Positions 6,239 through 35,798 of a stretch of DNA of 43,022 bases are shown here, piece after piece. The stretch covers positions 1 to 43,022 of the forward strand of contig CAIUAY010000067.1 in assembly GCA_903897335.1 (NCBI GenBank), given 5' to 3'. The position numbers were made by a program, and so were the translations under genes. The notes below the pieces were generated by a model. The model did not search any database. It saw only the letters and a list, made by a program, of their open reading frames with translations, and had not been told where the DNA came from. Source of the stretch: an uncultured Chromatium sp. Lineage in GTDB: Bacteria; Pseudomonadota; Gammaproteobacteria; Chromatiales; Chromatiaceae. How positions within the stretch are numbered: position 1 is the stretch's first letter; each line of letters opens with the position of its first letter.

Positions 6239-7639
6239 TCACATCGGGAATCCGCCGGGAGGCATCCCGTCTGGAGGCAAGCCGCCGCCAAATCCCGGCG
6301 GCAACCGTCCCTGCATGGAGCGCATCATCTTTGTCATTCCGCCACCTTTCATCTTTTTCATCATTTTCTGCATCTGCATGAACTGTTTCAGCAATTGATT
6401 GACATCCTGCACCTGAGTGCCGGAACCAGCCGCGATGCGCCGTTTGCGCGAGCCTTTAATCACCGCTGGGAAACGCCGTTCATTGGGTGTCATGGAATTG
6501 ATGATGGCAACCAGCTTGCCCATTTCCCTGTCGTTGGCGCGATTTTTAACATGATCCGGGATCTGTCCCATGCCGGGGAGCTTGTCCATGAGGCTGGCGA
6601 TACCGCCCATGCGGTTCATCTGCTCCAGTTGTTCCTTAAAATCAGCAAGATCGAAATCCTTGCCTTTTTTGAGCTTTTTGACCAGCTTTTCGGCCTGGTC
6701 GCGGTCAACCCTGGCCTGCACTTCCTCGACCAGGGATACCACGTCGCCCATTCCCAGAATGCGCGAGGCAATCCGGTCGGGATGGAAAGGTTCGAGCGCG
6801 GTGGTCTTTTCGCCGGTGCCGAGAAACTTGATCGGCTTGCCGGTGATCTGCCGGATCGACAACGCCGCGCCACCCCGTGCATCGCCGTCAGTTTTGGTCA
6901 GAATCACGCCCGTCAGCGGCAGTGCCTCATCAAATGCCTTCGCGGTATTAGCGGCGTCCTGGCCGGTCATGGCATCGACGACGAATAGCGTTTCAATTGG
7001 TTTTAGCGCGGCATGGATGGCCTTGATCTCGTCCATCATCGCCACATCGACATGCAGTCGGCCTGCGGTGTCGACGATCAGAACATCCTTGTAGTGTCTG
7101 CGGGCGCTGTCGAGCGCACCGAGGGCAATGTCGATCGGGTTCTGATCACTGCGGCTTGGATAACACTCTGCCCCGACTTCAGCGGCAACAGTTTTCAATT
7201 GTTCGATGGCAGCGGGACGATACACGTCACAACTAACCACCATCACCGATTTTTTCTGTTTGTCCTGGAGCCAGCGGGCGAGCTTGGCGACACTCGTTGT
7301 CTTGCCCGAACCCTGTAGTCCCGCCATCAGGACGACTGCCGGCGGCTGCGTGGTGAGATCGAGCTGTTCATTGGCCTGACCCATCAGACTGACCAGTTCG
7401 TCGTTGACGATCTTGACCAGCACCTGGCCAGGCGTCAGGCTTTTGGTCACGGTCTCGCCAAGCGCCTTGTCGCGGACATGCTCGATTAACTGGCGCACTA
7501 CCGGCAGCGCCACGTCCGCTTCAAGCAGCGCCAGACGCACCTCACGCAGGGTTTCCTGGATGTTGTCATCGCTCAGGCGACCCTGCCCCCGCAGATTGGT
7601 GACGACGCGCTCAAAGCGATCCTGGAGAGTCTCAAACAT
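6239..7639 (-). CDS. ffh: Signal recognition particle GTPase Ffh
   Basis: The 466-residue protein binds 4.5S RNA and signal sequences and targets ribosomes to the membrane through FtsY. The NG domain shows G1 GLQGSGKTT (107-115), DTAG (190-193) and TKTD (248-251). The M domain ends in a methionine-rich stretch (QFMQMQKMMKKMKGGGM) followed by a glycine and proline tail. Length and order are normal. The gene is divergent from ypjD, as in many gammaproteobacteria, but here a 520-base structured spacer lies between them. Its last codon and stop overlap the alternative GTG start of mepA, indicating one transcript. Confidence 0.98.
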   Translation of the reverse strand: MFETLQDRFERVVTNLRGQGRLSDDNIQETLREVRLALLEADVALPVVRQLIEHVRDKALGETVTKSLTPGQVLVKIVNDELVSLMGQANEQLDLTTQPPAVVLMAGLQGSGKTTSVAKLARWLQDKQKKSVMVVSCDVYRPAAIEQLKTVAAEVGAECYPSRSDQNPIDIALGALDSARRHYKDVLIVDTAGRLHVDVAMMDEIKAIHAALKPIETLFVVDAMTGQDAANTAKAFDEALPLTGVILTKTDGDARGGAALSIRQITGKPIKFLGTGEKTTALEPFHPDRIASRILGMGDVVSLVEEVQARVDRDQAEKLVKKLKKGKDFDLADFKEQLEQMNRMGGIASLMDKLPGMGQIPDHVKNRANDREMGKLVAIINSMTPNERRFPAVIKGSRKRRIAAGSGTQVQDVNQLLKQFMQMQKMMKKMKGGGMTKMMRSMQGRLPPGFGGGLPPDGMPPGGFPM

Positions 7640-7841
7640 AATCCAACCTCAGAAAAACATCGTGGTCTGCCTGGAAAGCAAGTTGTGAGTATAATATCGT
7701 GATGAAAAAATCTGGCGCCGTTAAATCGCTAACGCGGTCAGAATCAGTGTCACGCCATTGCACCATGATGTCGAGATTGTTAACGACCCCCGTCTGAAAG
7801 CGGGAGCGTGTCAAAGCACGTTCCGAAGTTGACCAGACCAC

Positions 7842-8145
7842 GCCCAGCGATGGGCAACATGACCTTGGAATCCGGCGCGAGCCGGTGTGATTAGGAACGA
7901 ATGGATGCTTCCTCAGTCCTGGACACTGTGGCAGGTGTTAAATCAGGCATACAGGGTACGAAGCCAGTGCCACGTCCAGGGACGGACGCGCAACGGATAA
8001 CCTGGTCGAGGGGAGCGATACCGCAAGGTATCCGTCACCAGGCTCTGACGGGCAGAGTCTCACGACCCGGCAGGTGGAAGCCTGTACTATTTGCAAGTGG
8101 CTGCACAGTTGCAGCCGCTATCCTTCCCCGCCTTGAAGGACGGGG
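7842..8145 (+). ncRNA. Structured RNA-like segment with an IS200/IS605 right-end hairpin
   Basis: The 520-base space between ffh and ypjD has no convincing gene but many hairpins. GCCCA/TGGGC (7842-7855), CCGGC/GCCGG (7872-7885) and GATACC/GGTATC (8017-8032) are each capped by a GNRA loop. CCTGG/CCAGG (8001-8042) encloses the third. CTCTG/CAGAG (8043-8057), GGCTGCA/TGCAGCC (8099-8116) and a terminal CCCCG/CGGGG hairpin (8126-8145) follow. The terminal hairpin and its flanks look like the right end of tnpB-bearing IS200/IS605 elements, where the 3' region makes the omegaRNA. No tnpB or tnpA frame remains. A TATAAT lies upstream at 7690-7695. The structure is seen; the family is recalled by appearance; function is inference. 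Confidence 0.45.
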
Positions 8146-8163
8146 ATTCTCGCGGAGGATCGG

Positions 8164-8970
8164 ATGACTCATACTCTTTTTGCTACCGTCGCCACGCTTT
8201 GCTATCTCGCCGCCGCCGCGCTGATCGGTCTGCGCCTGTTCCGTAAGGATGGCTGGATTCCTGAGCGCAATCTCGCCATCCTCATCGGTTTTGTTGGCTT
8301 GACGCTGCATAGTTGGCTGCTCTGGGACAGTATTTTCAGCAGCGCTGGACTCAATCTAGGTTTCTATCACGCGCTGGCCTTGACATCCTGGACGATTATC
8401 GCGCTGCTGCTGGTTTCCAGCCTGACCAAACCGGTTGACAATCTCGGCCTGATCCTCTTGCCTGCGGCAGCGTTGAGCCTGGTTCTGGAAGCCAATTTTG
8501 CCGACGTGGCCTTTATGCGTCCATCGGCTAGCTGGCCGCTGAAGATCCATGTGCTGCTCTCGATGCTGGCCTACAGCCTGCTGACACTCGCATCGGTGCA
8601 GGCGCTGCTGCTGGCGATTCAGGACAGTCATCTGCGCCGACGCCATCCAGGCGGATTTGTGCGTACACTGCCGCCACTGCAAACCATGGAAAGCTTGCTG
8701 TTTGAGATGATCAGCGCTGGTTTCGTGCTGCTGACGCTGGCGCTGCTAAGTGGCTTCGCCTTTCTGGAAAACATGTTTGCGCAGCATTTGGTGCACAAGA
8801 CGGTGCTTTCAGTGCTGGCGTGGCTGGTCTTTGGCGGGTTGTTGATCGGGCGTTTCCGCAACGGTTGGCGTGGTCGCACGGCGATCATTTGGACACTTGG
8901 TGGATTTGTCATGCTCATCTTCGCCTATTTCGGCACCAAGGTCGCGCTGCAATTCATGCTGCCGCGATAG
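8164..8970 (+). CDS. ypjD: CcsA/YpjD-family integral membrane protein
   Basis: The 268-residue protein has about eight membrane helices, for example FATVATLCYLAAAALIGL at the start and TLGGFVMLIFAYFGTKVAL at the end. It matches the cytochrome c assembly/HemX-like family that sits beside ffh in gammaproteobacteria (YpjD in E. coli). CcsA relatives handle heme for cytochrome c; the exact role of YpjD is uncertain, and the WWD heme motif of true CcsA is not evident. The conserved hydrophobic block containing LKIHVLLSMLAYSLLTLA is present. ATG 8164 has a GCGGAGG ribosome site that overlaps the end of the structured segment upstream. Confidence 0.85.
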   Translation: MTHTLFATVATLCYLAAAALIGLRLFRKDGWIPERNLAILIGFVGLTLHSWLLWDSIFSSAGLNLGFYHALALTSWTIIALLLVSSLTKPVDNLGLILLPAAALSLVLEANFADVAFMRPSASWPLKIHVLLSMLAYSLLTLASVQALLLAIQDSHLRRRHPGGFVRTLPPLQTMESLLFEMISAGFVLLTLALLSGFAFLENMFAQHLVHKTVLSVLAWLVFGGLLIGRFRNGWRGRTAIIWTLGGFVMLIFAYFGTKVALQFMLPR

Positions 8971-9006: not shown

Positions 9007-9156
9007 TCAGACGGCTCTGGTTAGAGCGTGTTTCAAACGTCCTAACTGATCGCGTCTTCCGAGTATCACGTTGATCATGGCGATGTAGGTGATCGCTTCA
9101 CTGGACTGGGTCAGCACCTCATCGTCCTGGCTCAAGCGGCGGTGCGCTCGACGACT
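9007..9156 (-). pseudogene. C-terminal fragment of an IS5-type transposase
   Basis: Minus-strand translation from 9156 reads RRAHRRLSQDDEVLTQSSEA and then ITYIAMINVILGRR. This is the typical end of IS5-group DDE transposases, whose last helix has the pattern R-R-L-S-x-D-x-E, S-S-E, A-M-I. Only about 50 residues remain and no catalytic DDE core is present. The upstream edge abuts a different transposase fragment at about 9156, so one element probably inserted into or recombined with the other. It is non-functional. Confidence 0.6.
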
Positions 9157-9330
9157 CAGCGGTGCGCAAGAATCCGGTGCGGACAGTGCGAGGCATCCTG
9201 ACCGGTTTCGCGTCGCCGCCATGTGCGCACGGTGGCGCGATTCAGATTGTCTTCGCGTGCCAGTTCACAGTCCGACTTCGTCGATGCGCGCAACTCCTGA
9301 CGGATCGCGGGCGTTTTGATGCAAGGTCAT
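9156..9330 (-). pseudogene. Frameshifted N-terminal transposase fragment (helix-turn-helix)
   Basis: From the ATG at 9330 the minus strand reads MTLHQNAR. After a frame change near 9306 it continues IRQELRASTKSDCELARED, NLNRATVRTWRRRETGQDAS and HCPHRILAHR, then stops at 9156-9158. The pattern of a helix-turn-helix followed by W-R-R-R-E and the (S/H)xxPHR element is that of IS481-like transposase N-termini. The catalytic domain is missing. The rest of 9331-9500 has no recognisable gene. Together with the neighbouring IS5-type tail it marks this intergenic region as an old insertion site. Confidence 0.5.
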
Positions 9331-9513
9331 GGTCAGTTGTCCCGCCAGGTCGGTGAAGGCGTCGTCGGCAGCGGGCGCTTGTTCTCCTCAGTTCATCGCG
9401 CAGTGTGCGTAGTGCCTCGCGGGCTTGGAGCAAAGGATGGCTCCTTCTCGGAATATAATCACATGGGACGTGACCATTAACATTCTCGCTTTAGTAAAAA
9501 TTTACCCTGCCGA

Positions 9514-35686: not shown

Positions 35687-35718
35687 GGTTAATCACGTCT
35701 CGATGAATCGTGAGTGAG
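35678..35718 (-). promoter_or_regulatory. Predicted expression platform: riboswitch strand pairs with the ahcY start
   Basis: CTCACTCA (35718-35711, minus strand) at the 3' end of the riboswitch is exactly complementary to TGAGTGAG (35685-35678), the second base of the start codon onward; a G-U pair extends it to nine. The first three bases are also used in the SAH-dependent pseudoknot. The two pairings exclude each other, so a translational on-switch is predicted. Pairing is seen; the mechanism is inference. Confidence 0.6.
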
Positions 35719-35787
35719 CGCCGTTAAAAAAATTGACCGCAGCCCCCGAGCCTGGCCTGGATTACTCCAGGTCGCAACGCTCCTCGG
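35711..35787 (-). promoter_or_regulatory. SAH riboswitch
   Basis: Read on the minus strand, the leader has all parts of the SAH riboswitch: CCGAG (35787-35783) pairs with CTCGG (35750-35746); the conserved core GGAGCGTTGCGACC; the hairpin CCTGG/CCAGG (35771-35767 with 35760-35756); and the 3' strand AACGGCGCTCAC, whose CGCTC (35720-35716) makes the pseudoknot with GAGCG (35782-35778). It ends 25 bases before the ahcY start. SAH riboswitches are known upstream of ahcY in proteobacteria and raise expression when SAH accumulates. The match is by eye to the known consensus. Confidence 0.93.
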
Positions 35788-35798
35788 TGACGAGGTTT

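Follow-up and report, generated by a model that had tools for sequence, protein, structure and literature searches.

A gene-less 385-bp HEARO (IscB omegaRNA) element between the ypjD leader and the ypjD start codon in an uncultured Chromatium sp.

OmegaRNAs of the TnpB type carry the guide on the 3′ side and have the TAM on the left flank, and work on IscB gives a guide length of 16 nt. HEARO elements, according to their 2009 description, are said to be located before ATGA or GTGA, so ATGA as a point of insertion probably has precedent. Standalone IscB omegaRNAs were reportedly described by Altae-Tran in 2021. Published work identifies HEARO as the omegaRNA of IscB (PMC9755519), reports standalone omegaRNAs working with IscB, and assigns an NTGA TAM to the OMEGA nickase IsrB (both in PMC9581776). 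Within the literature that our search covered, we met no account of IscB elements that sit at start codons or contain their own Shine-Dalgarno sequence, nor of an ORF-less class that combines the two or of its right-end relics.

The element described here lies in a 43,022-nt stretch of DNA from an uncultured Chromatium sp., analysed as a whole and called the window. It shares with HEARO (Rfam RF02033) a full-length model match, a 5′ guide position and a 3′ ATGA, and its ORF-less copies covary; it differs in having no iscB behind the RNA, a sub-gathering score, and, after the HEARO core, a 3′ tail of ∼140 nt that contains a right-end hairpin and a Shine-Dalgarno sequence for a host gene. In common with standalone IscB omegaRNAs, it is set apart from any effector gene while an iscB is present elsewhere in the genome, whereas its layout is that of a defined mobile element placed at a start codon and ending in a Shine-Dalgarno sequence. 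The iscB-carrying HEARO elements of Chromatiaceae (G010, probably Rhabdochromatium marinum) are alike in omegaRNA family, hairpin and ATGA junction, but they possess iscB and a GCAAGACTG end where the window copy has GGAGGA-ACTG. The NTGA TAM of IsrB is akin to the ATGA found here; in contrast to IsrB, the one IscB detected in this genome (on contig C122) keeps its HNH domain. Relative to TnpB the order is reversed, with the variable flank 5′ and the constant ATGA 3′.

The gap that holds the element separates ffh (6239-7639, minus strand, from the ORF list) from the divergent ypjD (8164-8970, plus strand), which encodes a Cytochrom_C_asm protein (Pfam PF01578) and has orthologues in 33 of the 37 genomes searched. 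The ffh-ypjD distance is 524 bp in the window versus 140 bp in G003, 140 bp in G005 and 143 bp in G004, all of the same genus. The ypjD leader, which ends in CACCATGCTGTCGAGCTT in G003 and in CACAATGCTGTCGAGCTT in G004 and G005, joins ATGACTCATAC directly in these three genomes; in the window a similar leader ending in CACCATGATGTCGAGATT stops at 7778, and ATGACTCATAC begins at 8164. The three loci therefore represent the empty site, and the insertion is a mobile element of 385 bp with no ORF at 7779-8163 (plus strand), without target duplication, located exactly between the ypjD leader and ATGA. By the same comparison, it separates the final 16 nt of the host leader (7763-7778), which occupy the guide position immediately 5′ of the omegaRNA, from the ATGA at 8164-8167, the first bases past the element, which provide both the ypjD start codon and the TAM position. 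The element is also absent from G006 and G001 of the same genus, where the leaders are too divergent to align by eye. These boundaries gained support from a second empty site. Another copy precedes a saccharopine dehydrogenase gene, and its left flank is similar to sequence ending directly at ATGA in G006 and G002; the corresponding leader in G003 and G005 is longer and different. The response-regulator copy had no alignable leader in the search for a third such site.

An earlier note on this DNA had marked 7690-8150 as one structured segment; the element is real, but those bounds are wrong, as 7690-7778 is host ypjD leader. The TATAAT at 7690-7695, the probable ypjD promoter, occurs in the ypjD leader of all five same-genus loci (L049-L053) and thus belongs to the host rather than the element; a consensus promoter scan of 7600-8250 gave no sigma-70 site, the TATAAT having no recognised −35 partner. 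As that note had supposed, the gap has no effector gene and the element is non-autonomous, with no iscB between 8021 and 8163 and no Y1 transposase TnpA within the 385 bp. Its traits are those of the IS200/IS605 group, including the subterminal CCCCG/CGGGG hairpin at 8126-8145 that the note had compared with IS200/IS605 right ends, the lack of a target duplication, and ATGA on the right. The 3′ end also reaches the ypjD ribosome site, as previously suggested: GGAGGA at 8154-8159, within the right end, is 4 nt upstream of the ypjD ATG, and GGAGGA-ACTG-ATG is a Shine-Dalgarno arrangement of ordinary spacing. The window element had no match in a phage collection and a partial match to one record of a plasmid collection, Allochromatium tepidum plasmid pAt1, in which the matched stretch stops 4 nt before an annotated CDS, although the annotation also places another, hypothetical CDS over the element. 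In the window, short minus-strand ORFs at 9007-9440, downstream of ypjD and ahead of the gene that follows it, resemble broken transposase pieces, which is an impression only.

A permissive scan of 7600-8250 placed the HEARO / IscB omegaRNA core at 7779-8021 (plus strand; full RF02033 model 1-211, 54.4 bits, E 2.8e-10). This score is under the RF02033 gathering cut-off of 83 bits, a curation threshold rather than a biological feature, and the element was missed when the window was scanned against Rfam at gathering level. The sole entry of that scan was a SAH riboswitch at 35709-35791 on the minus strand (61.8 bits versus a gathering score of 37). The window RNA is a diverged HEARO omegaRNA of IscB and not of the TnpB type. 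An omegaRNA had thus been correctly anticipated, and the option of a new structured RNA class falls away. The three hairpins with GNRA loops, the further stems, the terminal hairpin and the TATAAT of the earlier note could all be read in the sequence. Helix 1 of the omegaRNA (7779-7833) pairs 7779-7784 with 7828-7833 and encloses two hairpins, according to the sequence and the consensus structure; the GNRA stems are GCCCA-GCGA-TGGGC (7842-7855), CCGGC-GCGA-GCCGG (7872-7885) and GATACC-GCAA-GGTATC (8017-8032); and the 3′ tail hairpin (8098-8118) and the right-end hairpin correspond to consensus helices 13 and 14, respectively.

The segment 7690-8160 folded more stably than its shuffles (z −4.04, 0/100 as low). 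Alignment A1 combined the window copy with eleven ORF-less copies from other genomes and six from its own genome, and RNAalifold predicted 73 pairs, 19 of them with double changes; 96.8% of the alignment cells were able to pair. The covariation check on homologues gave a score for these 18 ORF-less copies of 0.247 versus 0.127 when shuffled (0/500) and at most 0.067 when slid, where the structure tested was derived from the same alignment. Pairs with a double change numbered 19 versus 14.1 shuffled (1/500), many of these changes splitting two groups of copies and so reflecting few events, and further pair types (51 versus 48.5 shuffled, 73/500) were not distinct. Related ORF-less elements of like layout are present outside this genome as well, and their RNAs covary. 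A protein-coding origin was rejected: ORFs of 88 aa (plus strand) and 69 aa (minus strand) overlap the gap, and the related copies covary as RNA.

The strongest competing account is that the window copy is a decayed relic, formerly mobile and with no working omegaRNA, whose right end was kept as the ypjD translation start region. Its 54.4 bits compare with 92-116 bits for nine of the better copies in its own genome, and 62 of the 70 consensus pairs that could be scored are present in it, four of the eight missing ones being in a single helix of eight. On the other hand, the copy is full length and retains most of its pairs, including helix 1 and the hairpins of the tail, and nine of ten ORF-less elements from other genomes reach 94-109 bits for HEARO, with one (L209) under the cut-off. 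The decay proposed by the earlier note is thus visible to some degree in this copy, while the ORF-less copies, taken together, covary. We regard the relic as unlikely, and the truncated elements described below also bear on it.

A blastn search with the segment returned 24 matches in the genome, the window included. The HEARO model gave 16 matches at E up to 0.01, ten of them over the cut-off, and 15 were kept as credible. The match that was dropped, on contig C137 (24.6 bits), is beside a TNB-domain match; of the 18 right ends that were read across the genome, its own is the only one that does not abut ATGA. At 15 of the 17 ATGA-abutting right ends, the ATG begins an ORF of 100 aa or more, compared with a background of 24% for ATGA words of the GTDB loci (n = 3761; binomial 5e-8) and 76 of 418 ATGA words (18%) in the window. 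A Pfam family was recognised in 13 of these 15 proteins, comprising response regulators (two), DUF6858, RuBisCO-like, saccharopine dehydrogenase, RmlD, DUF2491, radical SAM, STAS, DsrE, ATP-grasp, GrpE and the ypjD protein. Last iscB codons persist between omegaRNA and right end in nine of 12 own copies checked, which identifies these nine as deletion derivatives of iscB elements; the remaining three, the window copy among them, carry no such codons. Five of the 17 right ends are on copies 5′-truncated to about 75-200 bp (L013, L014, L015, L017 and L019) that keep the hairpin and the ATGA junction, and four of the five precede ORFs of at least 100 aa, as the relic account would expect. One copy, at C104:7344-7726 (L033; 83.3 bits), has a long insert of repeat pieces inside the RNA.

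The distribution of copies also bears on a second alternative, an element-derived cis-regulatory leader of ypjD that acts like a riboswitch or an attenuator. The RNA is in the 5′ leader, is highly structured and has a Shine-Dalgarno sequence at its end, all of which would suit such a role; however, it precedes many unrelated genes, and none of the five readable same-genus loci has it in front of ypjD, so the RNA follows the element and not the gene. A ypjD-specific leader was rejected because 14 further ORFs of 100 aa or more in the genome are preceded by related right ends, and we consider cis-regulation of ypjD quite improbable.

A 19-nt right-end pattern that did not include ATGA hit 109 GTDB contig stretches; the 80 of these that were examined contain 81 matches, many of them from Chromatiaceae. 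Among the matches listed, 66 of 81 have ATGA within 12 nt; the 15 without it comprise two with a hairpin, followed by ATGG and GTGA, and 13 with no hairpin by eye. The ATGA-bearing ends occur in two main forms. In the matches listed, iscB adjoins 26 of 29 ends of the form GCAAGACTG followed by ATGA (GCAAGA ends) versus one of 36 ends of the form GGAGGA-ACTG followed by ATGA, to which the window copy belongs (36 of the 66 ATGA right ends in the GTDB loci being alike in this respect); Fisher's test gave 9e-14, with the matches not independent, as a single genome contributes 12 of the 26 GCAAGA ends that carry iscB. When three ends with under 100 nt of upstream sequence were left out (L200 and L215, GGAGGA; L232, GCAAGA), the numbers were 1/34 and 26/28 (5e-14). 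The remaining GGAGGA ends listed are 13 ORF-less HEARO copies from six genomes, ten of them nearly whole at 370-412 bp, and 22 right-end pieces from 13 genomes, both kinds being present in three; a single GAAGA end listed is a right-end piece.

L184, which is cut 6 codons past ATG, was left out of this tally and of the next two. Among the listed ends with ATGA, gene starts of at least 60 aa were found behind 31 of 36 GGAGGA ends versus 16 of 28 GCAAGA ends (p 0.012), and at 100 aa behind 26 of 36 versus 14 of 28 (p 0.12). A looser tally, with a loose hairpin filter that kept 72 of the 81 matches, gave p 0.06 and 0.21 at the same two lengths. Shine-Dalgarno ends are thus modestly enriched at gene starts. 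ORFs of at least 100 aa follow 17 of 22 right-end pieces versus 11 of 25 iscB-carrying ends among the matches listed (p 0.036). In four elements of ∼45 bp from other genomes (L173, L218, L230 and L246) the left start TCAAYTACCCC is fused to a GGAGGA-bearing right end that immediately precedes a start codon; these, too, are of the kind that decay to a translation start region would leave.

A TnpB omegaRNA relic, the type favoured by the earlier note, has a right-end hairpin of like style and 14 TNB-domain matches in the genome to recommend it, the right end on the contig of one (C137) having a similar hairpin, but is rejected as scarcely credible by the RNA family, by the guide on the 5′ flank and the TAM on the 3′ side, which are those of IscB, by the GCAAGA ends beside iscB, and by the C137 right end, which has no ATGA behind it.

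One RRXRR/IscB gene was detected in the genome, on contig C122 (L040 1495-2841), and encodes a 448-aa protein with RRXRR and HNH (PF01844) domains. Its HNH motif is IENIQP, compared with IEH or VEH in all 15 other readable IscB proteins of relatives (17 loci, one of which could not be read), and the His replaced by Asn is presumably the catalytic one. The omegaRNA of this iscB (L040 1258-1446) is directly behind the upstream gene and, by eye, is without the GTCAACTACCCC start and the guide side. An active IscB partner is accordingly not assured, because of the Asn in place of the HNH His and the 5′-truncated omegaRNA. The C122 protein is perhaps a natural HNH-altered IscB; the Asn codon may instead be a sequencing error, or the 277 contigs may lack further iscB copies. 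If HNH catalysis is lost, RuvC nicking would be expected by analogy with IsrB. Seven Y1_Tnp matches were found in the genome, none at a locus with an IscB-type end, and no link of a TnpA partner to the C122 IscB was found. Among relatives, HEARO was present in 12 of 92 genomes under strict filters and RRXRR in 14 of 92; in genomes rich in both, HEARO versus RRXRR numbers lay closer together (22/29 in G010, 7/4 in G001 and 5/5 in G038) than the 15 to 1 here.

Seven genomes were searched for the guide position, as 16 nt (7763-7778) plus ATGA, allowing at most three mismatches. The match fell exactly on the ypjD start in G003 with two mismatches and in G004 and G005 with three each; these differences from the known empty alleles speak against the reading given below. 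G005 had one further match at an ATGA site and G002 had two at TTGA sites, all with three mismatches; the genome of the window itself contained the interrupted locus and one ACGA site, and a reversed-pattern control in the seven genomes gave no match.

We conclude that the insertion is probably an IS200/IS605-style IscB (HEARO) element that is non-autonomous, is transcribed from a host promoter, guides IscB in trans to empty sites and supplies a start signal. Its anatomy and insertion site, the pattern of copies and the covariation were observed directly; transcription, activity in trans and a role as ribosome-binding site are inferred. The ypjD host promoter would transcribe leader, omegaRNA and ypjD together, so that the end of the leader would become the guide. 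IscB encoded elsewhere would take up this omegaRNA in trans and bind the uninterrupted ypjD start (guide plus ATGA) on a sister or incoming chromosome. Because IscB would cut or nick at guide plus ATGA in the empty ypjD start, the filled allele would be favoured, leading to retention or copying of the element. TnpA, also in trans, would move the element, and although insertion would part ypjD from its leader, the right-end GGAGGA would take over the translation start.

A broader proposal, which we put forward tentatively, is that these are ORF-less IscB guide elements specialised on start codons, with a Shine-Dalgarno sequence that outlasts the omegaRNA and with several omegaRNAs for one HNH-altered IscB. 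In such a case ATGA would be both TAM and landing site, host promoters would make the guide RNA, and the right-end Shine-Dalgarno sequence would persist as a host translation start region after decay of the omegaRNA, down to ∼45 bp. The omegaRNAs acting in trans would serve an HNH-altered IscB that lacks a complete omegaRNA of its own.

These results suggest how a guide-RNA transposon may enter the start codon, the point at which a gene is most sensitive, without silencing the gene, and how guide RNAs may spread apart from their nuclease. The presence of empty and filled alleles in one genus makes IscB-favoured retention of the element testable. Should the right ends prove to be genuine translation signals, purple sulfur bacteria would translate a set of their genes from transposon DNA.
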